Source: Lampris incognitus
Lineage: Eukaryota; Chordata; Actinopteri; Lampriformes; Lampridae
Assembly (NCBI RefSeq): GCF_029633865.1
Contig: NC_079215.1
Coordinates: 53,715,698 to 53,779,697, forward strand
Length of the DNA stretch: 64,000 nucleotides
Direction: 5' to 3'
Under the pieces are notes generated by a model. It had not been told where the DNA came from and searched no databases. It was given only the letters and a program-made list of their open reading frames with translations. The translations under genes and the position numbers were made by a program. Numbering within the stretch: position 1 is the first letter of the stretch; each line of letters begins with the position of its first letter. Shown here piece after piece: positions 25,226 to 62,039 of the stretch.

Positions 25226-26731
25226 CTAGGGACAATTTAGTATGGCCGATTCACCTGACCTACATGTCTTTGGACTGTTGGAGGAAACCGGAACACCTGG
25301 AGGAAACCCACACAGACACAGTGAGAACATGCAAACTCCACACAGAGGATGACCCGGGATGACCCCTGAGGTTGGACTACCCCGGGGCTCGAACCCAAGA
25401 CCTTCTTGCTGTGAGGCGACCGCACTAACCACTGCGCCACCAGGCCTACCCCAGAACAACCAGATATAAAAACAGTTTCTTTCCGTGGGCTGTCATTCAA
25501 ATGAACACTTAACAATGTCAAATAAATCCAGCCATTTTGTATATACTGTACTGTACACTTTGCGTATACTGGTGCGCTCTGTCATGTCCATCTAGCTCAG
25601 GCATGTATATGTAAGTAACCTGCTAACATCTATTTCAGCATCTCTGATATATTCTCTGCACTATTGCACCATATCACCTCTTATTTCTCCTGTACAAGTC
25701 AATCCTTGTCTATATATCGAATATTGTTGTGTTGTAGTGTTGTTATTCTATGTTAAGTACACTGGGAGAGCGATGAAACTGGAGATAAATTCCATATATG
25801 TGCAACACTACATGGCCAATAAACATGATTCTGATTCTGGAGTATTAACAGCAAACAAAACCACTTGTTTGGTGCGTGTGCCCATGACCTTGACCTAATT
25901 TTATCCAAAAATGTAAAAGAACATAATTGATTTTAAAGCTGAAATCTGTGATTTTTTTTCCATCGCCAAGTGGTTATTTGGACCATGGAGTCAGCTAACA
26001 TCATGCTAACATCATGCTAACTGGCATCTTTACCATGGTTGAGGACACACTTCATATACTGCTGTTGTAAAAAAAAATTTTTTTGGCCCCCCCCCCCCCC
26101 CCCTCCTTTTCTCACCAATTGTACCCGTCCAATTACCCCATTCTTCCGAGCTGTCCTGGTCACTGCTCCACCCCCTCTGCCGAGCCGGGGAGGGCTGCAG
26201 ACTACCACATGCCTCCTCCGAGACATGTGGAGCTGCCAGCCGCTTCTTTTCACCTGACAGTGAGGAGTTTTGCCAGGGGGACGTAGCGCATGGGAGGATC
26301 ACGCCATTCCCCCCCCACCCCCCCGAACAGGTACCCCAACTGACCAGAGGAGGCGCTAGTGCAGCGACCAGGACACATACCCACACCCAGCTTCCCACCC
26401 CGCAGACACGGCCAATTGTGTCTGTAGGGACGTGTGACCAAGCCGGAGATAACACAGGGATTCGAACCAGCAATCCCCATGTTGATAGGCAACAGATTAG
26501 ACCGCTACACTACGCAGATGCCCCTGAAGATGACATTTTTACAAGGATGGGAATTGTTTACTGCTGCGCTGACAGCACACAAGCAACAGTGGCTGCTACA
26601 CCTTGTCGCTGCTGGGGGGGGGGGGGCAGATTGAGGAAATCATGGATTTCAGCTTTATGATTAAGACTGAGTTTTTAACTAGGTTTCAATATGGAGCTGT
26701 TTGATTAAACAAGAATGGAGTAATTTTATGA

Positions 26732-34880: not shown

Positions 34881-37097
34881 TCAAACCTTTCTAGCATTTT
34901 TTTCCACATACCTCTTCTGTGACATTTTCACACATTTATCACACTGGTCAAAATCGATACCAAGAAAATGTTTCAATTTACCCAAGTCTTTCATCTTGAA
35001 TTTTGCTGTGAGCATCTCCTTTACAATCTTCAGTGCGTTTTCATCACTGGCAGCAATAATCAAGTTATCAACCCATATTATAATTATCACTTTCTCATTT
35101 TCTGTTTCCCTTGTGTAAATACAATGATCAGCTGGATTTTGCAAAAACTCATTTTCGTTCAGACGCTCATGCAACATTTTGTTCCAGTTCCTGCCTGACT
35201 GTTTTAACCTATATAATGACTTTTCTAGATTATACACCAACTTTTCATTTGTACTAGATTTCACCTCGTAACCCTCTGGTTGTTCCATGAAAATCTCGCA
35301 ATCTATTGGTGCATGTAGGTATGCAGTTTTGACATCCATCTGATGTAAAATCAGGTTTTCCTGCACTGCTTTTTCCTTCAACACTCTGATACTGGTCAAG
35401 TTAGCAGTAGGAGAAAACGTCTCTTCATAGTAGTCTACACCCATCTTTTGACTGTATCCCTTAGCTACATACTGTGCCTTGTATTTGTCAGATTCATCAA
35501 CATCATTCTTAATTGCATATACCCATCTACCCCCCCCTGCATTCTTACCCTCAGGTAAGTTGGTCAGGGTAAATGTGTCATTTTCTCTGAGCGATTGCAT
35601 TTCGTAATCCATTGCATTAATCTATTCCTTTGAGTTAGTTGAGGTTACCGCTTCCCTGAATGTTAGGGGCACATTACACATCAGCCTGTAACAGTAATCT
35701 ATGTTCGTCAGTACCTGATCATCACTCTCCTCATCAGATACATATTCATTTAAATAACATGGTTTCTTCTTCACTCTAGAAGGGTATCGTGTGGGCTCAT
35801 GGCTGGGCTCGCCCGTCTGTGTTTGGCTGTTCACCTCAGGCCTAGCTACTGGGACCTGGCTCTGAGTACATCCTGGACTCACATCAGTATTTTGCCTGGT
35901 CTCGCTAGCCCTATTCTGCACCTAAAAGTCATCGTCATCAGGCATCATGTCAGTCTGTGTCTGCTGCTCTGCAATCGTTTTTGTCACAAACTTAACCAGT
36001 CTGTGCTTCTGCACTTTCCCATTGTCAGGATAATAGACCATGTAGGCTGGGCTATTCTTGTCGTACCCGACAAAGATTCCTTTCTCACACCTTGAGTCTA
36101 GTTTTCTCTTGTCATGCTTATAGGCATAACACGCTGACCAAACTTTTGCATCTTAGAAATGTTAGGCCGTTTTCCTGTCAACATTAAGTAAGGCGTCTGT
36201 TTTGTGCGATTGCAAAAGCATCTGTTCCTCACTACAGCTGCTGTCTGCACTGCATAGGCCCATAACACTTTTGGCAACTCGCTCTCTATTAGCATACACC
36301 TCGCCATGTCAAACAGGGTTCGCCAGTTTCGCTCAGCTGTACCATTCTGGTGTGGTGAGTATGGTGCTGAGGTCTCATGCCTAATTACATTTCTGCTGAG
36401 TAGTGCCTGGTAATTCTTTCCCATGAACTCTGTACCATTGTCAGATCTGGTACATTTAATTTTCCCATATGGGGCTGTGTCAGCAAGAAACTTCTCTGTT
36501 GTTTGCACTGTGTCACTCTTATTTTTTTAGGACGTACACGAACACTGCACTGGAATAATCATCAGTGAATGATAACGCAAACCTATACCTGCCTCTGGAC
36601 TCTGGGTCTATCGGTCCCGCTAGATCTGTGTGTACCAACTCTAGAGCTGCTTTGGCTCTCACACCAGGCTCCCTATTCCTAGTTTGGATACATTTTCCCT
36701 GAGTGCACACTTCGCAATGTAGGGTAGGTTTGTCTACTTTGCCCTTGACTGTCATACCATCAACAACATTTTGTAATTTCTGAATATCATCGTAATTACA
36801 GTGCCCTAGAATCTCATGCCATGTGTGTGTATATCAAAACACGCTTTACATTGGTCATCACATTCATCATTTACTGTGTGCAAGTAGTATAGTTTGTTAT
36901 GCTCATGAATGTGGAATTGTGCACCGTCTGTGTCTCGTAGAACGTCCTTTCCTTTCTTGAAGATTACGGTCGCTCCGCTGGCAATAGTCGCTTTCCCAGA
37001 AAAGATGTCCTGCGGGTATGAGGGGCTGTACAACGCCCGTCTCAGCGTCGTGTTGTGGCGTCACCCTCTGCTGTCGATCAAGCACACCTCCGCGTCC
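34881..37097 (-). pseudogene. copia copy 1 pol: protease end, integrase, reverse transcriptase (broken)
   Basis: Minus-strand fragments in copia order. The gag-pre-integrase region (36806-37033) contains ALYSPSYPQDIFSGKA. The integrase (36098-36755) contains HCEVCTQGKC, HTDLAGPIDP, SDNGTEF and SPHQNGTAERNWRTL. A linker follows at 35622-35921, then the reverse transcriptase (34881-35612) with GGRWVYAIKND, YSQKMGVDYYEETFSPTA, HQMDVKTAYLHAPIDCEIFM and LYRLKQSGRNWNKML. The catalytic YVDD is altered to WVDN. Frameshifts occur near 35615, 36095 and 36515. RNase H is missing, and the order stops where the foldback element and 3' LTR follow. Confidence 0.88.
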
Positions 37098-37098
37098 A

Positions 37099-40000
37099 GG
37101 TCAAAGTAAAGTTTTTGCGGGTTTTACATATTTTATATCGGAGCTTTTCTAAAGGTAGAAAGGACAGCACCTCCCTCAACCACTGCAAAAATGATGGCGC
37201 TTTATTCGACCTCCAGTTAAATAGGATAAGTCTGTGTGCTAGTAATGAGGCAAATGCTAGAGCATTTGCCTGCAAAGTTGTGACCTTACAGTTAGGGGGT
37301 GGTATGCCAAAGATGGCTGTGTGAAAATCAGGGTTTATGGTCTGTTTACAGATATGTGAGAATACATTAAATATCTGTCCCCAATAACTGTTGAGGGAGG
37401 GGCATGCCCAGAACATGTGTCCCACCGAGGCTGGACTATGGCTGCACCTCGGACAGCCAGGGTCTGTGGTGGGAAAGATTCTGGCAAGCTTGTCCCCCGA
37501 GTAGTGAAGACGGTGAAGCACCTTGAACTGAATTAACCCATGTCGTATACACAATGAGGACGTATGTATACGAGTGAAGCTGTCCCACCATGCCTCTTCA
37601 GAAAGCTCTACACCCAAATCTCTCTCCCATGCAGTTTTTGTTTTGTCCCAGGATATCTGTTTCAATCCCTGTATCAGTGTGTAAATTATAGAGACCCGTT
37701 TTTTCCCAAAGGGACCCATCTCTAGAATAACATCTAATTGGCTCCTGGGTGGCAGATACGGAAATGAGGGAAACACTTTCTTGGCAAAACTACGGATTTG
37801 AAGGTATCTAAAAAAATGGGATCTGGGTATGTTATGGTATTTGGTAAGTGTTTCAAATGAGGTGAATGTTCCATCTTTAAATAGATCACAAAAAAACACC
37901 AGTCCATTTCTATGCCAATGTTGAAATGCGTTATCTAACACAGACGACGAGACGAATTGATTATTTGCTACTGGAAAAAGACCGCTAGCATGCTTTAACC
38001 CTAAATGCCTCCTAAACTGGAGCCATATCCTAAGTGAAGCTTTAACCACCGGGTTTGTTATTTGTATGTTACGATTATGTGGTAGTGGAGAGGTGAATAT
38101 CGGTAAAGGATTGGATAAGAGTTCCATGTGAACCCAATCTGTACCCTGTTGATTCTTATATGTAAATGCCCAATGTAAAAGTTTTACAATGTTCGCAGCC
38201 CATTAGTAACAAATAAAGTTAGGCAAGCCTAACCCCCCTGTCTCCTTAGGGACCTCAAAGTATATTTTCTTCATCGTGGGGTTTGAATTGTTCCAGATGA
38301 ATGATGAAATTAATCTATCTAATTGTTGAAAAGTTGTCTTGGGTATGCATATGGGAATCATTTGAAAAAGATAGAGAAAAATCTGGGTAAGACTGTCATT
38401 TTAACTATATTAATGCGGCCCACTAATGAAATTGGTAGCGTTGACCACTTTTTAAAATCTTGTTTTGTTCGTTCTATTAGTGTTTTAAAGTTATGGTTAT
38501 ATAACCTCCCCATTGTATGGGTGACTCTGATTCCTAAATATGTAAATACATTATGTTCAAGTTTAAATGGAAAGCTAGAGTAGTCTCTATCAGTGTGGTT
38601 AATCGGAAAAAGCAAGCTCTTTGAATAGTTTATCTTATAACTTGACAGGCGACCAAAGTTATCCAGGGTAAGTAATAGTCTTGGTATAGATTCTATTAAG
38701 TTGGATATATATAACAACAGGTCATCTGCATAAAGTGATACCTTATGCAATTTACCACCTCGTGAGATACCTTTAATGCCATCCTCTGCCCTAAGAGCTA
38801 TAGCGAGTGGCTCAATTGCCAAATTGAAGAGGTAAGGAGAGAGGCTGCAGCTCCGTCTGCAGCCCCTATGGAGTGAAAAATAATCAGAAATAATTTTATT
38901 CGTCCGCACTGCGGCTGTCGGTGAGCAATACAATATTTTAACCCATGCTAGGAATGAGGAACCAAAGGCAAACCTTTCTAGAACGGCAAATAGATATTGC
39001 CATTCGATGCGGTCAAATGCCTTCTCAATAGCTAAAGAAATCACTACTTCTGTCTGTTCTACGGAATGTGGTGTGTACAGTACATTAAATAGGTGGCGCA
39101 CGTTATGGAATGACTGCCTGCCTGGTATAAAACCAGTTTGATCAGGGTTAACAACCGTTGGGACTACAGTTTCAATACGGGTGGCCAAGATTTTTGTAAG
39201 GATTTTGTAGTTGCAATTCAACAAGCTTACAGGGCGGTAGGAGCCACACAGTAGGGGATCTTTGTCTTTTTTAAGTAACACTGATATGATTGCCTGCATC
39301 ATAGTTTGGGGGTAATTTCTGTTGGTTAAACATTTCCTGATACAACAGGTTAGTATTGGTGCCAGCTTGGTAGCAAATTCCTTATACATTTCAATTGTGA
39401 AACCACCCAGACCCAGTGCTTTGTTGCTCTGCATGGATTTAATTGCTTGTATCACTTCCTCTGTTGATATCTCTCTGTCTATCTGTGCTCTGTCTTCAAG
39501 GGCAATTTTTGGTATGGTCAGACCGTCTAAAAAAGTGAAAATATGCGACAAGTCGCTGGGCGGTTTTGAACTATAAAGGGTAATATAAAATTGTTTAAAC
39601 TGGTTATTGATGGTGTCAGAGTTGGTAGTCTTTACCCCAGCTGCTGTACAAATTTCAGAAACAGTGTTAGCGGCTGTGGACTGTCTAACCTGATGGGCTA
39701 ATAGTTTTCCAGCTTTCTCTTCATGCTCATAAAATGTCTGTTTTGATTTAAAGAATAATTGTTCTGTTTGTTTAACGAGAGATTGTCGAATTCTGTTTTT
39801 AATAATAATTTTTTCTTATACAGTTCAGGTGTTGGGGAATCAGCATATGAATGGTCCACTTCCGCTATACTATGGGACAGTTCTGTTAGACGTTGTTTAT
39901 GTTTCTTTCTCTCATGTGCTGTGTATGAGATTATTTGGCCTCTAAGGTAGGCTTTGAGAGCCTCCCAAACAATAGTTAGTGGCATATCCGCAGTATGGTT

Positions 40001-40838
40001 GAATTCCATAAAGATATCTATCTGCTGGGAGAGAAAATTTTTAAAGGAGTCCCTGGACAGTAATAGAGGATCAAATCGCCAGGTGTGTTGGGGTTTAGGG
40101 CAGTCTATGAAGCCTATATCTAGATGTACAGGACTATGATCCGAAATAACAATACTATTATATTGACTCCCCTAACCATAGGAAGGATCCTACTATACAG
40201 GAGAAAAAAAAATCAATCCTTGAGTAAGAATGGTGCACTGGGGGAAAAAAAGCAGTATTGTTTAGTAGTAGGGTTGTTTCTTCTCCAGGGATCAAAAAGA
40301 GAGTAGGATTCCATATATGAATGGATAACAGCACCTGCCTTCGAAATTTTACTATTAGGTCTTGGGTTTGATCTGTCCAAATATGGATGTAATACACAAT
40401 TAAAATCTCCCCCCAAATAGGTAATTATTTAAGTCTGGGAGGGCTGCTATGAAACTAGAGAAAAAAAGTGGGTCATCCCAGTTTGGTCCATATACATTTG
40501 CTAGTGCCACACGTGTACCATACAGGTTACCTGTCACTATCACATACCTTCCCTGGGGTCAGAAATAGTCAGCAGTGGAATGAATGGGATACCCTTCCTG
40601 ATCAAGATGGCCGTGCCCCGCGTTCTATTCTCATTCCTGGAACAGAAAATTTGTCCTATCCAAGCTTTCTTGAGTTTTGTGTGTTCACTTGACCGAAGAT
40701 GAGTTCCTGTAAGAACATGACATCAGCGCTCAAAGATTTTAAATGTACAAAAACCCTACTAAGCTTTACTGGATTGTGAATTCCCTTTATATTCCAGCTC
40801 AAAAAACGAAGATAACCTGTATTTTGAGCATCAGACAT
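37099..40838 (-). pseudogene. L1-like LINE ORF2 (endonuclease and reverse transcriptase), broken
   Basis: The ORF2 start reads MSDAQNTGYLRFLSWNIKGI (ATG at 40836-40838), an APE-type endonuclease N-terminus, followed by a frameshifted endonuclease with GGDFNCVLHPYLDRS (40380-40416). The reverse transcriptase (38358-39551) has RPVSLLNCNYKILTKILATR, QTGFIPGRQS, AEDGIKG and YADDLLLYIS. Motif A reads SLAIEKAFDRIEW, where L1 elements have D at the third position, so one catalytic Asp is lost. The C-terminal part (37078-38127) contains CPRCSHSPASVGHMFWACP, the Cys-His motif typical of L1 ORF2. The L1 3' UTR and poly(A) are absent; the frame runs straight into copia sequence at about 37098. Confidence 0.9.
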
Positions 40839-41611
40839 TTTTTCTAAAAATGAAAAGAGAGAAGAAAAAAAAAGTCCCTGCCTACTAACTACAAAACAAA
40901 AACAGAGCCTTGAGAACCCAGGGTGATCTACTAATTCCCTAGACATCGCATCCCCCATTTCTAGTATAACATGGCAAATAACCATATAAAAACCCTCTAA
41001 CAAGCCCTAACCAGGGCGAACAGTGGTCTTGTTAAGATTATATTAAATCAAAAAGTATTTATATACTTAAGAACTATATATCAACACCCATATTAAAATA
41101 AAAAAAGGAAGGAAAAGAGTATATCAACACCCATATATCAGCAGTTATAATACAGTTCCTTTGTAGGTAAGTGACACTGACCTGGGTGTCGCCCTAGCAG
41201 TCTCTGGCAAGTCACCAAAGCACTGTTACGGGTCTCATAATAATTAGCATCCGTACACACATATACATGCACACACACGATAATAATAAAACAGAAAGAT
41301 ATCTTTTAAAATGGGCAGCAGGTATGAAACATTCGTATTACATGAAAAAGGCAACATTATCTGTGAGTCTCAAATTACAAAAGTTAAAGTAATTAGATAA
41401 AGTTAAACTGTAACGTTACCCTGTCGTCTTGGTGTCTTAGCTAGTTACTTCCGCTAGTTGTTGGTACTTAGCAGCTAATAACGATTAGCCGCCAATACCA
41501 GTTAGCCACAAATATATTGGAGTTTATCAACATCTTACTGTACATTGTCCGGAGGCTTTAGATTCTCCCTGATATAACCCATCGCCTTAGATGGGTCGTC
41601 GAACCGCTTTT

Positions 41612-41925
41612 TAGTCTAGTCAGTTAAGGCAAAATGGCTGCAAAAAGTCATTCACATTTGAGCCTATGTTTTTCTGTTAATTTAGAGTCCAATAAAGAAA
41701 AAAATGCAAGGAGCCCAAAATTTTAGGTGGGGGAAGTCTCTGAAATGGCCACGCCCACTTTTTAGGCCTGGAAATCAGTATCTCGGCTCCTGAATGTCGC
41801 AGAGAGCTGATCATGGGCTCAAAAGAAGCAGAAGCACCACATTTATATAAGCATTATGAACAAACATATACCCCAAAACCTTTACTTTTTCAGATATTTT
41901 AAGAAAACTAATTTTTACTGGTCAC
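41612..41925. repeat. Left inverted repeat of the 4.26-kb transposon
   Basis: It matches the right repeat from TAGTCT to the inner end ctggtcac. The main differences are within the first 45 bp. Confidence 0.9.
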
Positions 41926-41970
41926 GTTTCACGTATCAGCTCCTGAAGGTTGTAAAAAGGTATATTTGAC

Positions 41971-44900
41971 ATGAAGGAAGGCCTCTCAAGGGAGAGAAGA
42001 TTTTCCAGGGACATTAACCCTAACACACCGGGCTTGGAAACAGTGTTGGAGGAATATCTGAGCGTAATGGAGCAGAAGGTCTTTAAGGAGTCTCGTCGCC
42101 CTCTACAGACCATCAATGTTGAAGAAGTTGACGCAGAGCTAAAAGTCGTGTTTCAGAAAAGCATGGAAGAAGAAGAAGAGTTTTTGATGGTGGCTATGAA
42201 GAACATTGGATCTGATGCATTACAGCCTGTTACTTGGACCTGTCACCATGCTTCAAAGGAACGTGACCAGACAGATGTTCCCAAAACAATCAACTGCATC
42301 CTGCCAGTGATTGACCATGCTAGCAACACTGAACACCTTCAGCTCCATGTCATGAGAATAGCAGTATCATACACAAGATATCTTAACCCAGGCCAGGTTG
42401 CAGTGGGTGGATCCGATCAGCCCCTTTATGCCATCAAGAAGATGATACAGTGGGCCATGGGGGAAGAGTTTTCTCATTCATACTTCGCGTTCATGGGTGG
42501 GCTGCACCTTGAGAAGGTTTCTCTTGTCTGTGTTGGGCAGTTGATAAAAGGAACTGGCCTTGATACCATCTTAACCTCAGCTAATCTGAATATCACAGGT
42601 CTGACAACTGCTGTCTGCGATGTGAATTCCATAAAGAAGGCTAGATACTGTATTCAACTCCTGGCTGTGGTGCTGGCCAAGAAGAGAGATGAAGCATTTC
42701 AGGCAAAACGTCTAGAGGACAACAGTTTGACTTGGAGTAACTGGGTGGCCAATGAAAACAGCCCCATGTTTCACTACTGGAACAATGTTGTTGACACAAT
42801 CAAGAAGGTCCTTATCTTCATAAGATCCTTTCGAGAGGCAAACTTCATCATGATGATCAGTGCACTTGAGCAGCTCATTCCTCTTTTCTTTGCACTTGAT
42901 CATACACACTATGCCAGATGGGCATCAGTGTTTCTTCAGGATCTCAAAGAGCTCAAATGGAGACACCCATACTTGTTCAAGGAATTTCTTTCAGGCTCTT
43001 TCACAGTAAACACCAGAGACAACCCATTCTCAAAGATTGCATGTGATCAAAAGCAGGAACATAACATAAAGGTCATCAAGTCTGACACTGGATATGTCGA
43101 TATCATCAATCGGGAAGATCAAGAGTTCTTCAGGAAACTCGAACTTGCGCTACCCGAAATCCAGCGCTACCTAGATGAGGTCGAAGGTCAAGATCCATCA
43201 CACGGGCACAAAGAAATGCTGGATTCCTTCAAGGAAACATTTTCAAGCCACACACTCAAGGTGTACCAGGGTATCCTTACCAACCCGTTCGATGAAGCTC
43301 AGTTCATGAGGTTGAACTCATCCATTCCCTTCCCAGATGTCATAAGTAAAGACTCCAGTTTTGTCTTTACAGTCGGCAAAACTCAGCATGACCAGTTTGT
43401 GCAGGAGCGAATTGTATTAAGTAAGAAGGATGTCAATGCAACCATCTCACGAAATGCCCTGAAACTCCCAAGTTCATGTGCAAAAGTCCAACTCGCTAGC
43501 CCTGCAATCAAGCCACCCAAAGGAACCTTTGCAAAGCTGAAGGAGGCCTGCAGATCAAGAGAAGAAGAGACAAGGAAGTTATTTGGTGGTGAATTCACAG
43601 GTGAAACTAATTGATATAAAGTCAGTTATTCAAATATTTTAGATGTTACTTAAGTCTTACCAGATTTTTAATACAGTGATATTCATTGATTCAATTTCAC
43701 ATTCAAGTTAATTGATTTGACAGTAAGCCCAAGAGTTACACTTAGCTTAACTATTCATTTCAATTTCAGGTTTACCCGACGCCTTGTCAACAAAGGATGG
43801 AGATATTTATCATAGCCAAAAGTCTCAAATTCTTAAGGACATCGGTGTACAAGTTCAATCTACATCCTCAGAAGGACTTGTGATAGATTTGTCTGTGCAA
43901 GTACGAATCATGGCAAAGTCTCTCACCAAAGGCATGACATTCCAAGACTTTGTAATCAAAGTGTTGAACAGCATTGCCAGGATCGGTCATGAGAAGAAAG
44001 CCAATCATATTGACATTGTGGCTGACCTCTACCAGAATATGAGCATCAAGACTGCGACTAGGAAGAACCGGGGATCAGCAGGTAGTTCACAGATGGCTTT
44101 CAGTGAGAATGACACCATGCCAGAATCTAAGCAATTCTTTGAAGCTTTTCTGTCTAATGTAGACAACAAAGTAGCCCTGGATCTAATGTTCGCCAGGATT
44201 GCTAAGGCACAAGCGTGGAACTGGGACAAGGAGTTCAGCATCACCTACGGCAGAAAGGTGCTTGCAAACTTCGGCGAAAGCTTCGAGATCCAGCTTTATG
44301 ACAGCATAGATATGCTTGAGGAGGCTGACAACCGCATCGTTTGCCATGTGATGCACATGCTAAACAAGGGGATCAAGTCAGTTACAGTTAGAACAGTCGA
44401 CTCCGATGTGGTAGTCATCCTACTAGGGTTCACTACACAGTTCCTATCAGTATGTAATGACTTGCAACTTATAGTTGACTTTGCAGTTCCTGGCAAACGC
44501 CAATTCTACTCAATCACAGAAGCACACAAGAAGCTTGGTGGAGATGTGGCCGATGCCATGCCTGTGTTCCATTCTTTTAGTGGCTGTGATTCTGTGAGCG
44601 CCTTCTTTGGCCACTCAAAGACTGCTCAATACAAAGCCTGGATAAACCACAGTAAGTCCACAGAACTCACTGCTGCTTTGAGAGGACTAAGTTGCTGCCC
44701 TGGTATCGAGACAGTTAAGGAAAGCATGGAAGTTATTGAGCCCTGGGTAATGAGCTGGTACAACAAGACTGGACTGTACAACTGTGTCAGTATAGATGAG
44801 CTCAGATTCCAGCTGTTCAAGCACTCAGTTAATGATGAGCTGAGAGACCTACCCCCAAGTCAGGATGCGCTTCTACAGCATCTGTTGAGAGCTACATTCC

Positions 44901-45151
44901 AGGCAGGATGGCTGTGGGGAAACAGCCTGCTACAACTCCCTTGTCCCCCTGTCATTGAATGGGGTTGGACTACCGAAGGAGAGGAACTCTTCGTCAAGTG
45001 GAGCACAGTTTCCACAAGAGATACATTGTCTCAAGTAACAGGGGTGTGTAGTTGCAGATCTAATAAGTGTACCTCATGTTCTTGTGCTGGCAGAGGGATG
45101 AAATGTCTCATTTATTGCAAGTGCCTCAGCAAGTGTTTGAATCCAGTCTGA
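41971..45151 (+). CDS. Putative transposase, two exons, 1003 codons joined
   Basis: Exon 1 is 41971-43600, the intron is 43601-43769 (gtgaaa...tttcag, 169 nt), and exon 2 is 43770-45151 ending TGA. The join is in frame, reading EFTG then LPDALSTKDG. The first 540 residues are an unrecognised domain (TWTCHH, DQPLYAIKKMIQWAMG, FFALDHTHYARWASVF). Exon 2 shows HIDIVADLYQNMSIK, EEADNRIVCH, VRTVDSDVVVILLG and HSFSGCDSVSAFFG, spaced like the acidic motifs of XPG/FEN1-type PIN nucleases, then a Cys-rich tail (CSCRSNKCTSCSCAGRGMKC). No stop interrupts either exon. The start ATG lies 46 nt inside the inverted repeat, and an upstream exon or N-terminal deletion cannot be excluded. The function is inferred from motifs and context only. 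Confidence 0.72.
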
Positions 45152-45369
45152 TGGGATGTGTGAGGTTAAAATAAAGATTTTTTTGGACCTCACATGGTTT
45201 GCTTTGTTTCTTTGGTGGTTACTGGGTTCCTCCTCTTATAACAAAGAGTCAACTTGAATACTAGCACTCCATGAGTAGATGTAACACTTTTACTCAAACA
45301 AACTGTATAGCCTTCTTGCACAGATTTGGCTAAAGTTGATTGCATGCTGCTGATCAATTCAATGGAAAA

Positions 45370-45550
45370 AAGAACATGTTCATGAATAGCTCAAAACGTG
45401 AAGATTTTAGGGCATACAGTATATTTGTTCAGAGCACTAATATAAATAGTTATTTCCACATCTTTTGAGCCCAATATCAACTCGGGGCAACCTCCGAGAG
45501 CTGAGCCTGAGATATAGTCCCAGGGCTAAAAAGTGGGCGTGGCCATGTAT
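45370..45550. repeat. Diverged direct duplication of the right subterminal region
   Basis: The segment around 45390-45550 (..cttttgagcccaatatcaac.., aaaaagtgggcgtggccatg) repeats 45585-45735 (..cttttgagcccatgatcagc.., aaaaagtgggcgtggccatt) in direct orientation at about 190-bp spacing, with clear divergence. Confidence 0.75.
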
Positions 45551-45874
45551 GTGACCAGTGAAAATTAGTTTTTTGTAAATACCTGAAAAAGTAAAGGTTT
45601 TGGGGTATATGTTTGTTCATAATGCTTATATAAATGTGGTGCTTCTGCTTCTTTTGAGCCCATGATCAGCTCTCTGCGACATTCAGGAGCCGAGATACTG
45701 ATTTCCAGGCCTAAAAAGTGGGCGTGGCCATTTCAGAGACTTCCCCCACCTAAAATTTTGGGCTCCTTGCATTTTTTTCTTTATTGGACCCTAAATTAAC
45801 AGAAAAACATTGGCTCAAATGTGAATGACTTTTTGCAGCCTTGACCCCATATTTGCCCTTAACTGACCAGACTA
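45551..45874. repeat. Right inverted repeat of the 4.26-kb transposon
   Basis: Inverted copy of 41612-41925. It is slightly longer owing to an extra 'ggggtcaa' segment near the outer end. Confidence 0.9.
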
Positions 45875-46591
45875 TTTCTTGGCCGGATGATTAAGTGATA
45901 CGAAGCACCGCTGGGAACTGGATCCCGAACTTGATGCCCTGGCAGCTCCGGAGGAGCCGTTTAGCTTCGGAGAAGCCCGCTCTCTTTTTCGCCACCGCCG
46001 CGGTGTAATCCGGGAAGATGCTCACTCTTGCCGTGCAGGCTCAACGGAGCTGAACGGGCAGCTTTGCGGAAAAACCTCCTCTCTCTCTGAGAAATAGTGA
46101 AACTTCACCACGATGATCCTGGGGGGGGGGGGGGTTCTCCTTCGTTGGTGGAGTGCCGCAGGCTGTGGTGAGCCCGGTCTAGGGTCGGGGTGAAGCTGAG
46201 GCCTAGTAACTCCTGCAGTAGTTTAGTGATGGTAATAGCAGGCTGCTGGCCTCCGCTGGTCTCGAATCCCTCTTTTATCCCGACAATGCGTGCATTACAC
46301 CGGCACTGTCGTCCCTCCAGATCATCTACCTTCTGGCGTAGCATAGAGACTTCAGATTTTAGCTGGCCGATGTCCTCCTCCATTTTCGTCGTCTTGTCTG
46401 AGTATGTGTTCAGGCCGTCCTCCACATCTTTCAGACAGGTCTCTTGTTTCGCCGTGCCGTCCTTTATAGAGTCTATTTTTGCATTCTGATCCTCTGTCAG
46501 GGTATCTGCAGGTTTCATTAAGTTAAATTTAAGACCTTTTTAATGCCACTTGGAATGGAATTTAAGACCAAAATCTACAACAAAATATATA

Positions 46592-47849
<1,258 letters not shown>

Positions 47850-48127
47850 TAAGTAACCGCATTTTAGCCGATTGGAAAGAGGTCTTGACGTTCAGACCGA
47901 ATATTTAAACATTTGATTTGCGGAATTTCGCGCGATTGCATCAGATAAGCTTGAAGTCCTCCTCCATGTTGAAAAAGCTGCCAGAAACTATACGCTGCTG
48001 TGATTGGTTGATTCGCTGTGACATCGATGACAAAACAACGAATCACCGCAGAGCGCGCAGCGGCGGTCCCTCCCCCCTCCCGATCCACTCTCGCGTCAAC
48101 CTTTCTTCTTCTCTCGGCAGCCATTTT

Positions 48128-48436: not shown

Positions 48437-51400
48437 ATGGCTTCCAATATTCCGCCGCCGGAGCCCATGAAGATGACTGGGGATCTTCACAGCAACTGGG
48501 CTAGCTTTCGATCAGAGTTTGAGGATTATGTGCTTGCGACCGGGATCGACAAGGCAGAGAAGCCGGTGCAGGCAGCGACGCTCCGGAGGCTAATGGGGAA
48601 GGAATGCCTCCATGTTTACGTGCACAACCTGGGACTCACAGCGGAAGAGCAGAAAGACGCCGGAGCGATACTCCACAAACTGGGGGAATACTTCACACCT
48701 ACCAAAAACGTCATCTTTGAGAGGTATGTTTTTGGCAACCTCAAACAAGAGGAAGGAGAACCTGTGGATGCTTTTGTCACGAGACTGAGAGAAAAGGCTG
48801 CCACATGTGAATATGGAGCTATAAGAGACGAGCTTATAAGGGACAGGCTTGTTCTTGGAACAACTGATGAGGGCGCCAGACGACGCATGCTGAGAGAAAA
48901 GGAGCTTAAGTTGGAGGGAGCTATTGACATTTGCCGTGCAGCGGAGGTGTTGGACAATAAGTTAAAATCCATGTCACTTAGCAGCTCTGTGACTGCGGAG
49001 AGCATCAATGTAGCACATGGACAGCGACCAGGACGGAGACCTACCAGCAGGCCATCCGAGCCCACCAACACATCTGTACAGCCACAGAGAGGCACAGGTG
49101 AATGCAAGTACTGTGGCACACCGCACAGACGGGGGCGAGACCTGTGCCCCGCATTTGGAAAGTCATGTCGCTTGTGTGGCACTGCTAATCACTTTGCCAA
49201 AGTATGCATGAAAAGAGGCCAGCAAGCACGTCAGTTGAACGCTGTGGATGACCCGCCGCTAGGGGACCCGGAGGACAGCGACCGCGATGAGAGGGATGTG
49301 TACACGGCTGAGAGCGTGGGGGCTGTGAACACTCAAAGGAAAAAGTGGTTTGTAAACCTGCCACTGCACAGAGGGGTCCAGAGGTGCCAGCTTGACTCTG
49401 GAGCCACCTGCAACGTGATGAGCTTGAAAGACAAGATGAGACTGGCGCCTAGAGTGCCTCTTCAGAAAAGTCTCACCAGGCTGAGACTCTACAACAGTGA
49501 GTGGATGAGCTCAATGGGCGTGTACAGCACACAGTGTGTCATCAGGGGCAAGACGCACAGACTGGACTTTGAGGTCGTGCGCACCAGCCAGAAGCCCTTG
49601 CTTTCAGGGGAGACATGCGAGAGACTTGGCTTGATACGCTTCACCATTCCCGAAGAGCTGAATAAAGTGGAGCACTGCAAGACAGGTGAGCTAACCAAAG
49701 GCTGTCTCATTAACACTTACAATGACGTGTTCACCAGCCCAGGCGAGTCACTGCCGGGTGATGTTCACTTCGAGTTGGATAGCACTGTGGCCCCTGTCCA
49801 GTGCGCACCAAGAAATGTCCCGGTGGCCCTCAAGGCAGCTGTTAAGGCGCAGCTGGACCAATATGAAAAGGATGGACACTTAACCACAGTCACTCAGCCC
49901 ACAGACTGGATTAGCAATCTGGTCATAGTGAAGAAGCCGGACAAATTGAGGCTTTGCATCGACCCCAAGCCACTTAACCGAGCCCTGAAAAGGTCCCATT
50001 ACCTCATGCCCACTTTAGATGACGTGCTGTACAAGCTGCCTAAGGCACGTATCTTCACCCTGGTGGATGCGCGCGACGCATTCTTGCAGTGTCGCCTGGA
50101 TGAGGAGAGCAGCCTGATGACAACGTTCTGGACGCCGTGGGGTAGAAAGCGATGGCTGAAGCTCCCTTTTGGCGTGTCAGTCGCACCAGAGCTGTACCAG
50201 AGGAAACAACATGAGCTGCTGGCCGGTTTGAAAGGAGTTGAGCCCATAGCCGATGACATCCTCATAGTCGGCTGTGGGGACATGGAGGAGGAGGCCGTTT
50301 GCAACCACGACGCAAACCTCATTGCTCTGATGGACAGATGCAGGGAAGTGAAGCTGAGGCTGAGCATAAAAAAGCTACAGTTTCGTGTGAGGGAGGTCCG
50401 CTTCCACGGCCACATACTGTCGGCGGAGGGCCTCAAAGCTGATCCCGAGAAGGTCAGGGCAGTCCTGGACATGCCAAACCCCACGGATGCAAAAGGCGTT
50501 CAGCGGTGTGTCGGCTTCGTTAACTATTTATCGAGGTTCATGCCCCGCTTGTCAGAGGTGTGTGAACCGCTGAGAAGGTTGCTGGACAAAGGTGTGCTGT
50601 GGCACTGGTTGCCCAAACATGATGCTGCTATGAAAGAAATCAAGACGCTGGTCACGGCGGTGCCAGTACTACGTTACTATGATGTCAGCAAGCCAGTCAC
50701 CATACAGAGCGACTCCAGTCAGACCGGTTTGGGCTGCTGCCTGCTTCAGGGGGGACAGCCGGTCGCGTTCGCCTCCCGCGCGCTGAACCAGACGGAGCAA
50801 AACTACGCACAGATTGAGAAGGAGTGCCTGAGCATCGTATTCGCTTGTCAACGCTTCCACTACTACCTATGTGGGAGGGGTGATGTGACTGCAGAGACCG
50901 ACCCCCGCCCGCTGGTGTCAATCTTCACTAAGCCCCTTCTCAGTGCACCAAAGCGCCTTCAAAGCATGCTCCTCACACTTCAGAACTACTGCCTCTCGGT
51001 GATGTACAAGCCAGGCCCTGAAATGTACATCAGTGACACGCTCAGCAGAGCCACCACCCCGCCACAGAGAACGGACACTCAGTACAGACGTGAAATGGTC
51101 TGCAGCATGCAGCAGGTGCAGTACGACACGGCAGCCATTCAGCAGGCAGACTATCTAAACGTCACCAGCCAACGCCTCGCACAGATTCGAAAACACACAT
51201 AGGAGGATGTGTGTCTTCAAACACTCAAGTCGGTCGTGCTGGAGGGATGGCCAGAACACAAAGAGGAGAGCCCCATAGCCGTCAGAGAATACTGGGCCGT
51301 CAGAGATGAAATAAGCGCACAGGACGGTGTGCTTTTTAGGAGCCAGCGTGTCATCATTCCGAAAGCTATGCGTCCTGAGATGCTGAAACGGATCCACTAC

Positions 51401-52552
51401 AACCACGTGGGGGGTGAGGCTTGTTATAGACAGGCCCGGGATACTCTCTACTGGCCAAATATGCAGGGGGAAATCAAAGACTATGTGCAGCAGTGCTCAG
51501 TGTGTAACGAGTATGCACACGAGCAACAAAAAGAGACTATGATGTCACACCCGCTCCCCACACGTCCCTGGCAGCTGGTGAGCATGGACTTGTTCAGCTA
51601 CGCAAGGCAGGACTTCCTGCTCATGGTGGATCACTATTCAGACTTCTGGGAGATTGATCTACTCCCAGACCTGTCGGCAGAAACGACCATCCGAAGGTGC
51701 AAGGCGCAGTTTGCACGGTACGGTATCCCTGACCGGGTCATTTCCGACTGCGGAGGTCAGTTTGATTGTGGAGAGTTTCGGGCGTTTGCGAGGGAGTGGG
51801 GCTTCGAACATGTCATGTCCTCCTCGAGACACCCAAAAGCTAACGGCAAAGCAGAATCTGCAGTGAAGATTGTGAAAGGCCTATGCAGAAAAGCAGACCG
51901 GGCCGACGAGGACCCCTGGAAGGCTTTTCTACACTGGAGAAACACGCCCACTGAGGACATGCGCGGCAGCCCAGCACAACGGCTGATGTCACGGAGGCTG
52001 AGAACTCTTCTCCCTGTGGCCGACCAGCTGCTAGCACCTCAGATCATCACTGGGGTCACAGACAAGCTGAGGATGAAGCATCAGGCAGCGAAGTTGACAT
52101 ATGACAGAACTGCGAGGGATCTGCCAGAGCTAAACGTCGGCCAGCCTGTCAGGATGAAACCAATCCCGGGTGACAGGACAGGCCGATGGAGGAGAGGAGT
52201 ATGTCTGCAGCAGGTGGGACCGCGGTCCTATCTCGTCAACGTGGAGGGAACCACGTACCGTCGCAACAGGGTTGATCTCCGACCAGCGGAGGTTGCCCCT
52301 CCACAGCCGTCAGCCCACACAGAACGGCCACCGGAGCAGCCTGTGGGCGTGTGTGCAGCTGAAGGGGGCCATGTGGGCGGGGGCAGCATGGAGGAAGTCG
52401 TCAGCAGCCCTGTAATGTCTCCAAGGTCGTCAGCCCCGAGGTCGCCGCCATCTCCCCCACAGGCTGTGACCACACCATGCCGTGAGTTACAGGGCCGGGC
52501 CTTCTCCCGGAGCGGGAGGCAGATTAAGCCTCCAGAAAGACTTGACCTCTAG
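48437..52552 (+). pseudogene. gypsy gag-pol polyprotein with one in-frame TAG
   Basis: Gag begins MASNIPPPEPMKMTGDLHSN. The zinc knuckle CRLCGTANHFAKVC is at about residues 243-256, the protease motif LDSGAT at about 318, and the reverse transcriptase reads LRLCIDPKPLNRAL, TLVDARDAF, LPFGVSVAPE and ADDILIVG (about 510-610). RNase H follows (SDSSQTGLGCCLLQGGQPVA, about 755), then a TAG at 51200-51202. In the same frame the integrase continues: HHCC finger around YNHVGG..CSVC, core SMDLFS, SDCGGQF and HPKANGKAES. Total 1371 codons, the usual size of a gypsy gag-pol. The stop lies between RNase H and integrase, where gypsy elements do not normally recode, so a nonsense mutation is the simplest reading. 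Confidence 0.9.
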
Positions 52553-55794: not shown

Positions 55795-57435
55795 CAGTGC
55801 ATCCGGAAAGTATTCACACCCCTTCACTTTCCCCACATTTTGTTATGTTACAGCCTTATTCCAAAATGGATTAAATTCTTTTTTATCTCTTTCTTCAATC
55901 TACGCACAATACCCCATAATGACAAAATGAAAAAGCTTTTCTAGAAATTTTTGCAAATGTATTAAAGATAAAAAACTGAAATATTGCATGTACATAAGTA
56001 TTCACACCCTTTGCTATGACACTCAAAATTGAGCTCAGGTTCATCCTGTTTTCACTGATCATCCTTGAGATGTTTCTATATCTTGATTGGAGACCACCCG
56101 TAGTAAATTCAATTGATGGACATGATTTGGAAAGGCACACACCTGTCTATATAAGGTCCCACTGTTGACAGTGCATGTCAGAGCAGAAACCAAGCCATGA
56201 AGTCAAAAGAATTGCCTGTGGACCTCCGAGACAGGATTGTATCGAGGCACAGATCTGGGGAAGGGTACAAAAAAAACTTCTACAGCTTTGAAGGTCCCGA
56301 AGACCACAGTGGTCTCCATCATTCATAAATGGAAGAAGTTTGGATCCACCAAGGACTCTTCCTAGAGCTGGCCACCCAGCCAAACTGAGCAATCGGGGGA
56401 GAAGGGCCTTGGTCAGGGAGGTGACCAAGAACCCGATGGTCACTCTGACAGAGCTCCAGCGTTCCTCTGTGGAGATGGGAGAACCTTCCAGAAGGACAAC
56501 CATCTCTGCAGCACTCCACCAATCAGGCCTTTATGGTAGAGTGGCCAGACGGAAGCCTCTGCTCAGTAAAAGGCACATGACAGCCCGCTTGGAGTTAACC
56601 AGAAAGCACCTAAAGGACTCTCAGACCATGAGAAACAAGATTCTCTGGTCTGATGAAACCAAGATTGAACTCTTTGGCCTGAATGCCAAACGTCACGTCT
56701 GGAGGAAACCAGGCACCTCTCATCACCTTGCTAATACCATCCCTACAGTGAAGCCTGGTGGTGGCATCATGCTGTGGGGATGTTTTTCAGCGGCAGGAAC
56801 TGGGAGACTAGTCAGGATCGAGGGAAAGATGAATGGAGCAAAGTACAGAGAGATCCTTGATGAAAACCTGCTCCAGAGTGCTCAGGACCTCAGACTGGGG
56901 CGAAGGTTTACCTTTCAACACGACAACGACCCTAAGCACACAGCCGAGACAATGAAGGAGTGGCTTCGAGAAAAGTCTGTGAATGTCCTTGAGTGGCCCA
57001 GCCAGAGCCCAGACTTGAACCCCATTGAACATCTCTGGAAAGACCTGAAAATAGCTGTGCAGCGACGCTCCCCATCTAACCTTACAGACCTCGAGAGGAT
57101 CTGCTGAGAAGAATGGGAGAAATACCCCAAATATAGGTGTGCCAAGCTTGTAGCTTCATACCCAAGAAGACTTGAGGCTGTAATCGTTGCCAAGGGTGCC
57201 TCAACCAAGTACTGAGTAAAAGATGTGAATACTTATGTACATATGATATTTCAGTTTTTTATTTTTAATAAATTTGCAAAAATTTCTACAAAACCTTTTT
57301 TGCTTTGTCATTATGGGGTATTGTATGTAGATTGATGAGGGGGGAAAAAAGGAATTTAATCCATTTTGGAATAAGGCTGTAACATAACAAAATGTGGGGA
57401 AAGTGAAGGGGTGTGAATACTTTCCGGATGCACTG
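55795..57435 (+). mobile_element. Tc1 transposon copy 2, complete with about 210-bp inverted repeats
   Basis: 1641 bp, ends CAGTGCATCCGGAAAGTATT on both sides in inverted orientation, flanked by TA (55793-55794 and 57436-57437). The inverted repeats extend about 210 bp. This family is widespread in teleosts and has been reported in lampreys as well. Confidence 0.95.
56196..57223 (+). pseudogene. Tc1 copy 2 transposase (frameshifts and nonsense)
   Basis: Starts MKSKELPVDLRDRIVSRHRS. A frameshift occurs in an A run near 56270 and a second near 56345. The readable frame 56340-57107 carries [20 protein letters not shown], then the DD34E catalytic segments [22 protein letters not shown] and [15 protein letters not shown] at 57105-57107 lies where an Arg codon is expected, and the frame continues EEWEKYPKYRCAKL afterwards. 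All three catalytic acidic residues remain, but the protein cannot be made whole. Confidence 0.92.
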
Positions 57436-58851: not shown

Positions 58852-61800
58852 ATGGCGAGCGGAGCAACAGGAGTCTTGGCACTGCAACTTTGGTTCGACG
58901 AATCCGGAGATAAGTATGAACTTTGGGAAACAAGATTTCTAGGCTGCTTACATACTCTGAAGGTAAAAGAGACTATTTTACGTGAGCTCACCGGCGCTAG
59001 CGAAGAATAGTTAGCTGACGATAGGAGGAAGAATGCTGATTGCTATGCTGAGCTAATAAGACTGATAGATGATAAAAGCCTATCGCTGATAAGACATGAA
59101 GCCACTGATGATGGCAGGAAGGCTCTGAGAATACTGAAAGAACATTATTCCGGAAAAAGCAAGCCGCGGATAATAAATGTATACACGTCATTGACCAAGC
59201 TACGCATGGCGGACAACGACAGTGTTACCGACTACATAATAAGGGCGGAGAACCTCATTACGGCTCTGAGAGATGCAGGTGAGACCATGAGTGACGGACT
59301 GATCGTAGCCATGATACTAGGCGGGATACCAGACTCTTCTAAGCCGCTAGCCGTCCACATAACACAAAACGAAGATAGCGTTACGTAGGCAGACTTTAAA
59401 AGAAGACTACAGGTCTATGAAGAGGCGGAGAAAATGAACACGGCAAGATCTACGGATAATGTGATGAAGACATGTGCAAGGCAAGGCCGAGGCCCCACCA
59501 AGACGCACGCTAACAACAGAAAAGACGAAGGTGCCAACGTGACCTGTTACAAGTGTGGAATAAAAGGGCACAAGGCAAGAAAATGTTTCCGAAAAGTGTG
59601 GCGCAGTTACTGCAAAAATAATACACACCAAGAATCCCTGTGCAAGAAAAAGGGGGAACAAGATGGTGTCAGAAAAGTCGCAGAGGAACAAAATAGCGAC
59701 CACGACCATCTCTTCAAGGCCAAGCACACAAAGAACGAGAGACCACCAGACAACGTGATGATGAAAGGCATCATGGTGGATGCAGGAGCAACATCCCACA
59801 TCGTGAACGACATTGGAAAGTTTAAAAGTTTCGACAACTCATTCCAGCCTGACACCCATTCAGTGGAGTTAGCCGATGGGACCAAGTGCAGTCGAATAGC
59901 GCAACGAAGAGGAATGGTGATGAGATGTCTACTAGACAGCGTCGGACGACAGCACAGAGCACAGCTACAGGATACACTGTACATGCCTTCATACTCACAT
60001 GACATCTTTTCGGGGACAAGATTAGCAAATGGAGGGGCGACAATCACTTTCAAGAAAGGGGACAGTCGCATGGTTACCAAGGACAGTAGCAGGTTTGACA
60101 TCCATGTGAGTGGAAATTTGTATTACTTGCCAACTGTTGAGGAGAGTGTTGACCAATGTAAAGGGTGTCACGACATGCAAACTTGGCATGAAATTTTGGG
60201 TCATTGTAACTATGAAGATGTACAAAAGTTACAAGGTGTAGTGAAAGGCATGGAGATATAAGGAAGTGCAGTCACACCAGCTCAGTTATGTGAAGTGTGT
60301 ACACAGTGCAAATTCACTCAGACGAGAAATAGGGAGCCAGACAGAAAGGCTAAGAAACCCTTAGAATTAGTCCAACCATGACTTAGCCGGTCCCACACCA
60401 ACACCGAGCATAGAAGGGTACAGATATGCACAGTCTTTTACACACGACTACTCAGGTACCGTGTTGGTGTATTTTCTAAGGTCCAAGAGTGATACAGTGC
60501 AAGCCACAGAAAGGTTCTTATCAGACAAAGCATCTTACGGAGAAGTCAAGTGTATCCGTTCAGATAACGGCACTGAGTTTACAAGCCGAGACTTCCAGGC
60601 ACTGTTAACCAAGAATAGGATTAGACATGAGATGTCTGCACCCTATTCACCCCACCAAAATGGCACAGCAGAGAGAGGTTGGCGAACTCTATGATATGAA
60701 TAGATGCTTACTGATAAAAAGCAAGTTACCAGATAAGCTATGGAACTACACTATGCAGACAGCAGCTTATGTGAGGAACAGGTGCTACAGCAGGCGCACA
60801 AAGAAAATGCCATACGAGCTGTTCACAGGCAAGAAACCAAACATATCCAAACTGCAGAAATTTGGATCAATGTGTTTTGCTTACAAGCAAGAGAAGGGGA
60901 AGCTAGCCTCTAGGTGTGAGCGAGGTGTTTTCATTAGCTACAATAAAAACAGCCCAGCTTATCTAGTGTACTATCCAGACACAGAAAGGGTTCAAAAGCA
61001 CAGGTTGGTGAAGTTCACAACCAAGACAGCCAAAGAAAAGGAAACACAAACACCTGAGTCATACATAGAATATGGTGATAGGAACGTACATCCCAGGGTC
61101 AATGACAGTGAAGAAAATGTTGTTGATGAAAATGTGGAAAATGTACCAGGTCAGGGTGTTCAGAGTGGAGTTCCTGGGACTTTACCTGAAAAGACTGAAC
61201 GCACACAGCCAGGCAAAGTCACAGAGACTGTAATCAGAAGGAACCCACCGCGAACCAAGAGGAGACCAGCTTACCTACAGGAATTCAACACTGAGGATAC
61301 AGAGGACAAACTGCAAACATGCGTGGACTCTTGCTATAGAGCAGTATGCGACATTCCTCAAACCTACCAGAATGCCATAGCGTCAACCACATCAAGGCAG
61401 TGGAAAAATGCCATGAATGAGGAGATGCGATCACTGGAGGAGAACGAGACCTTCAGCCTCACCCAGCTGCCATCAGGTAAACAGGCAGTGGGGGGTAGAT
61501 GGGTCTACACACTCAAGCGTGACATTGATGGATCTGGTAAGTACAAGGCGAGATTCATAGCAAAAGGCTACAGTCAGAAACCAGGAACTGACTATGAGGA
61601 GACATTCTCACCCACAGCCGATATGACAAGTGTAAGAGTGGTCATGCAGAAGGCAGCGCAGGAGAACCTAGCCTTACACCAGATGGACATTAAGACAGCC
61701 TATTTGCATGCACCAATTGACTGTGAAATCTATATAGAGCAACCAGAAGGTTATGAGAAAAAGTCAGAAACGTGTGAAAAGCTAGTATGCAAGTTGCATA

Positions 61801-62039
61801 AGTCTCTCTATGGTCTAAAGCAGTCAGGCAGAAACTGGAATGCTATGTTACATACATGTTTGAGTGAAAATGGTTTTGTACAGAATCCCGCTAATCACTG
61901 TGTATATACAAGAGAAAAACATAATGGAAAGGTAATCTTGGAATACTGTCCTACTGAGCAAATGATCGCTGATGTAATGACAAAGGCAGCCACCAAGCTA
62001 AAGCTAAAGAGGTTTGCTCAAGACATGTTTGGCACTTAG
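58852..62039 (+). pseudogene. copia copy 2 gag-pol (broken)
   Basis: Gag starts MASGATGVLALQLWFDESGD. In-frame TAG codons occur at 59008 and 59386. The zinc knuckle is CYKCGIKGHKARKC and the protease is VDAGATSHIV (about 59776). A TAA at 60259 and frameshifts near 60380, 60455 and 60690 break the integrase (CEVCTQCKF, SDNGTEFTS, SPHQNGTAERGW). The reverse transcriptase keeps GGRWVYTLKRD, GYSQKPGTDYEETFSPTADM and LHQMDIKTAYLHAPIDCEIY but jumps from YTREKHNGKVI to ILEYCPTEQMIADVMTKA. That deletes the YVDD catalytic motif and most of RNase H. Confidence 0.9.

Follow-up and report, generated by a model that had tools for sequence, protein, structure and literature searches.

The window analysed here, a 64,000-nt (64-kb) stretch of the Lampris incognitus genome (contig NC_079215.1, forward-strand positions 53,715,698 to 53,779,697), contains at 41612-45874 a DNA transposon copy of 4,263 bp, bounded by TTT on both sides and lying inside an L1-like element. 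With high confidence, we assign it to a very young cut-and-paste family of the Academ type (AcademX-like), as a non-autonomous copy with an internal deletion that was most likely moved by a full-length sister. The anatomy of the copy, the target-site duplications (TSDs), the empty sites, the deletion, the multiplication of the deletion junction and the youth of the family were observed directly, and the two protein folds are predictions.

In an earlier reading of the letters, made without database searches (the sequence-only reading), the copy had been described as a young transposon with long, nearly identical inverted repeats around two open exons, and this anatomy was confirmed. The arms consist of a 290-nt core, 98 % identical, and 24-nt outer ends, a match far beyond chance (blastn E 3.6e-142); the difference in their length (314 vs 324 nt) is confined to the outermost ~35 nt, which carry 10 bp of gaps. 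The inner part of the right repeat has a diverged second tandem copy, of which the left end shows at most a short trace. The two exons join through an in-frame GT-AG intron into 1003 codons, and the open frame that starts at the exon-1 ATG measures 547 amino acids (aa). Many relatives continue straight through the predicted intron site, and this boundary is also where P0037, P0038, P0042 and P0058 end or diverge; on these frames, both the window copy and the family gene are predicted to be spliced.

The L1-like nature of the host was borne out by a reverse transcriptase frame at 38358-39551 (RVT_1, E 1.6e-31). The host element spans 37078-46518 on the minus strand; endonuclease-like text at 40656-41003 was judged by eye, and a coiled-coil-like frame at 46105-46518 has only sub-threshold Pfam matches. 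Two pieces of the interrupted host frame gave no L1 ORF1 match in a Pfam scan, and the label ORF1 used in the sequence-only reading reflects position and look. The same reading had taken the host frame as support for a 3-bp duplication. Excision of the element with one TTT does give back the frame GQEKRFDD, but a TAA a short way upstream already interrupts the host frame, which is also kept when no TTT is removed, so the frame alone does not prove 3 bp. Two 3-mers would match by chance at an estimated 0.017 per pair, and the window TSD by itself is therefore weak evidence. The length was settled by paralogous sites. The flanks joined through a single TTT matched 40 of 40 scored genome places across the junction (94-97 % over 196-199 bp; the 40 were scored out of 121 first-look candidates), and the unduplicated, single-copy site was found in all 12 host-site relatives read at the junction. 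Since these paralogous empty sites are single-copy, the duplication is exactly 3 bp and the insertion into the L1-like element is proved.

Alignment to a full-length copy, L029, showed that the window copy corresponds to L029 bases 1-364 and 2935-6833 at 99.7 % identity, with 2,570 bp gone. The L029 gene model joins exons 1152-1190, 1335-1885, 1987-4559 and 4729-6110 into one frame of 1514 codons, of which the window's 1003 codons make up about the last two-thirds. Two relatives, P0059 (E 7.9e-13) and P0065 (E 1.7e-05), back exon 2 and many back exons 3 and 4; no relative supported the 13-codon exon 1 in the same comparison. Ten complete full-length copies measure 6,832-6,833 bp and one 6,768 bp; L037, of the full-length type with an inexact left end, was left out of these 11. 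The predicted frame is uninterrupted in 5 of the 11, and the six GT/AG dinucleotides are kept in all of them.

Lost through the deletion are the N-terminus and, within the DDE core, strands 1-2 together with the first candidate catalytic Asp; the window copy lacks a complete DDD/E triad. The part upstream of the window frame is present in five (P0036, P0037, P0039, P0048 and P0052) of the nine relatives compared with the window, and in a search with these nine it was found nowhere in the 64 kb. The sequence-only reading had taken the copy for an autonomous element, in which case the 1003-residue protein starting at ATG 41971 would be a complete transposase with the XPG-like domain cutting alone. 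In favour of this reading, the joined frame has no interruption, the acidic residues proposed for the nuclease are in place and the window deletion form is multi-copy, but it is highly improbable: the full-length sisters have ~510 extra N-terminal residues, a DN-motif block occurs in 19/19 relatives that extend at least 46 residues upstream (five others are too short to reach it), and the predicted RNase H fold of the window protein is without strands 1-2. Moreover, the full-length gene model places the ATG in non-coding DNA, and this start codon is a by-product of the deletion fusion. On this alignment the copy is judged internally deleted and its autonomy is rejected. The case calls for caution: with intact ends around an uninterrupted frame of 1003 codons the copy gave the impression of autonomy, yet the frame arose by deletion and its start codon is accidental.

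A genome search with the left inverted repeat, a check of the kind proposed in the sequence-only reading, showed that the element has many relatives in the genome. The left repeat has at least 40 genome copies 100 % identical over 314 bp (the best 40 of 310 first-look candidates, which may include right arms). By coordinates, 8 of these 40 places belong to a 3,980-bp type, 7 to a '124-aa' type and 4 to copies with the full N-terminal block; 2 carry the window junction, 1 is of the L043 type and 18 are unclassified. Twenty stretches were fetched, two of which stayed outside the TSD count, L037 because its left end was inexact and L047 because its range was too short; all 18 fetched copies with both ends had 3-bp duplications of varied sequence (TAA, CTG, TTG, ATC and others). 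Ten further sites were read at the predicted ends. Both ends were found in six, five with 3 bp and one in a GA repeat, where the duplication length is ambiguous and compatible with 3 bp; in the remaining four the right end was not at the predicted place. With the window copy included, 24 of 25 copies have exactly 3 bp and one is ambiguous.

The window deletion junction is present at seven genome places, window included. The complete 4,263-bp form was found at C1, C25 and C66, each in a different site, and at the other three places the right end was not where predicted; this form has therefore been inserted at least four times, counting the window. Other derivatives comprise a 3,980-bp form (6 complete copies), one 4,250-bp copy and further places carrying frames of 328 aa and about 124 aa. 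Movement in trans is the best explanation for the multiplication of forms lacking part of the transposase. The suggestion that the window element is possibly still mobile thus holds for movement in trans, and movement by its own protein is not supported.

The multiplied derivatives could instead be kept as regulators of transposition, their encoded protein acting as a repressor; KP derivatives of the P element are repressors of this kind. In both the window type and the 3,980-bp type, which are multi-copy, the left part supplies an in-frame ATG (in L042 and L044 of the latter type at ~position 392) before the remaining exon-3 frame, giving open frames of 547 and 443 aa, respectively, the latter in L042 and L044 with Met at the second codon. 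Simple reasoning predicts such a fused frame by chance about one time in three, though, and in L043 it reaches only 191 aa. In six copies with the 328-aa frame, what is left of the last exon begins at window base 44873, and these copies have multiplied or survived with most of the nuclease gone, the full-length copies bear no sign of post-insertion selection, and the truncated protein would be without the predicted DNA-binding part. A repressor role is accordingly rated as quite unlikely.

The youth of the family, already proposed from the window alone, is evident from the divergence from the 19-copy majority, which is 0.03-0.22 % for the 11 full-length copies and 0.19 % for the window copy. 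Among 60 coding changes in the full-length copies 16 were synonymous, 40 nonsynonymous and 4 stop, against neutral fractions of 0.26, 0.70 and 0.038 (the count used the last exon 9 nt short, which leaves the conclusion unchanged). These changes look neutral, so the open frames reflect youth, not constraint. If an uncalibrated rate of 1e-8 per site per year is assumed, the age of the burst comes to around 100,000 years in order of magnitude. The N-terminal query had 89 genome matches, dozens of them partial and at other identities, and some of these have long open frames; the genome may therefore also contain older Academ-like families beside the young one. A 2,654-aa open frame at C3:2968222, considered as a host gene, was an artefact of an N run beside a deletion derivative. 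In viral contigs nine stretches matched the peptide patterns, none of which coded for a relative, and a 19-nt inner-repeat pattern had no exact match.

From an N-terminus that is Cys-rich by eye, the full-length protein continues into a likely winged-helix part, a DDE core, a nuclease and a Cys-rich tail. The DDE core is predicted to adopt an RNase H fold with a helical insertion, and window exon 1 retains this core without strands 1-2, the helical insertion and the third candidate catalytic residue. The motifs VDSDVVV, EEADNR and GCDSVSAFFG and the Cys-rich tail, noticed earlier, are all present. The nuclease that had been proposed was supported by comparison of the predicted fold with EXO1/FEN1/XPG, while the partial DDE transposase core alongside it had gone unnoticed. 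The link to XPG came from the fold comparison alone: Pfam, PHROGs and PDB sequence searches gave nothing usable, and no Pfam XPG match was found in P0002 or any of 28 aligned sequences at E up to 1. For the Cys-rich tail, four of the 28 aligned sequences, but not P0002 itself, match Pfam TCR weakly (best E 0.0048). Pfam DUF6589 (PF20231), a family without assigned function, matches P0001 residues 283-403 (E 1.2e-05; 24.6 bits, under the Pfam cut-off of 27) and, in alignment A1, 3 of the 28 sequences. No helicase match came out of the Pfam scans of P0001, P0002 and the N-terminal 511 residues, and no Academ-named match was seen in the Pfam scans.

The structural neighbours of the predicted DDE core are the P element, RAG1 and Hermes, which might point to a different DDE superfamily, close to P or hAT, with an XPG-like gene acquired in a separate event. 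The TSDs of P and hAT elements measure 8 bp, however, in contrast to the 3 bp of 24 of the 25 copies here (one ambiguous). In addition, six long relatives (P0060, P0061, P0062, P0064, P0065 and P0066) have the DDE and nuclease parts fused in this order too. Such an independent capture is very unlikely. The P element transposase is not known to have an XPG-like domain; the nuclease of AcademX is of the XPG type.

Table 1. Coordinates of the transposon copy and its parts in the 64-kb window
Feature	Position	Strand	Basis or remark
Left TSD copy, TTT	41609..41611		present once in paralogous empty sites
Left terminal inverted repeat, 314 nt, begins TAGTCTAGTCAG	41612..41925	+	repeat comparison; at least 40 identical genome copies
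Exon 1 of joined frame	41971..43600	+	5 nt ATGAA (non-coding left DNA) fused to the rest of family exon 3
Junction of the internal deletion, 2,570 bp lost relative to full-length copies	41975..41976		alignment to full-length copy
Candidate second catalytic Asp, SDQPLYA, P0001 D149 = P0037 D466	42415..42417	+	D in 27/27 rows with a residue
Candidate catalytic Glu, DQKQEHN, P0001 E363 = P0037 E701	43057..43059	+	E in 24/24 rows with a residue
Predicted GT-AG intron, 169 nt	43601..43769	+	frame joining; relatives
Final exon incl. stop: XPG-like nuclease and Cys-rich tail	43770..45151	+	open frame
Predicted EXO1/FEN1/XPG-fold nuclease region, P0002 residues 16-399	43817..44968	+	predicted fold comparison
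Cys-rich C-terminal tail, perhaps distantly TCR/CXC-like	45047..45142	+	seen in translation
AATAAA, possible polyadenylation signal, shortly 3' of stop	45170..45175	+	sequence
Diverged second tandem copy, inner part of right inverted repeat	45367..45546 (approximate ends)	-	repeat comparison
Right terminal inverted repeat, 324 nt	45551..45874	-	repeat comparison
Right TSD copy, TTT	45875..45877		paralogous empty sites

Besides the transposon and its host, the window carries frames of a long terminal repeat (LTR)-type retroelement at 48437-52552 on the plus strand (RVT_1 and RNase H in a 921-aa frame, integrase in a 447-aa frame), two copia-type fragments at 34881-35612 (-) and 60627-62039 (+) with RVT_2 E values of 9.5e-67 and 1e-50, and a Tc1/mariner-type transposase at 56340-57107 (+) with HTH_Tnp_Tc3_2 and DDE_3. 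A shorter frame at 47451-47852 (+) resembles a Tc1/mariner-type transposase by eye. Between 1839 and 26473 alike translated texts recur in both orientations (e.g. 1839-2339, 18586-19074, 21501-21983 and 26030-26473; by eye), which suggests an interspersed repeat. The tRNA and Rfam scans gave no match in the window.

For the movement of the deleted copy by a full-length sister the following course is proposed, in which the enzyme activities, the movement in trans and the role of the nuclease are what we infer. The N-terminal part would bind the element ends, and the DDE core would probably cut the inverted-repeat ends and join them to the target with a 3-nt stagger, giving the 3-bp duplications. 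At the ends, the fused FEN1/EXO1-like nuclease would probably cut or trim the remaining strand or flaps. The window copy still has its ends, with an incomplete transposase of its own; with the N-terminus and the first candidate Asp lost, it was most likely inserted by the protein of a full-length sister.

The family is assigned to the Academ type, AcademX-like, on features that fit the published description. The passages of PMC10045372 on these groups give AcademX a TSD of 3 or 4 bp and AcademH one of 9 or 10 bp, and tie the difference to an encoded nuclease vs helicase. The family studied here shares with AcademX the 3-bp TSD, the encoded nuclease, the terminal inverted repeats and the predicted DDD/E core, so that the Academ assignment of the sequence-only reading agrees with this description; the window copy differs in being internally deleted. 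With AcademH it shares the superfamily name and differs in the nuclease and the 3-bp TSD. Academ is named among the DDD/E superfamilies in the relevant part of PMC9587614, and Academ elements were already known from fish (Xiphophorus, as mentioned in PMC4705583). A narrow look at open papers found none on the role of the XPG-like nuclease in Academ transposons, none naming DUF6589 and none linking an XPG nuclease with a transposase and a transposon. The element is of a known, little-studied kind, to which the window family is newly added.

Human EXO1, FEN1 and XPG differ in that the nuclease here is fused to a transposase. This genome offers a young family with open full-length copies, several derivatives in which particular domains are deleted, unambiguous 3-bp duplications and numerous paralogous empty sites, and so makes the role of this nuclease directly testable, by determining the strands cut by each active site. 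In bacterial Tn7 the 3' ends are handled by the DDE enzyme TnsB and the 5' ends are cut by a different nuclease, TnsA. By analogy, the single protein described here might be the eukaryotic equivalent of the Tn7 pair and carry out cut-and-paste with two nucleases, in which case the DDE core would serve the 3' ends and the fused FEN1/EXO1-fold domain would cut the other strand. The comparison is tentative, with the odds rather against it; if it were true, loss of the nuclease activity would convert cut-and-paste into copy-type movement.
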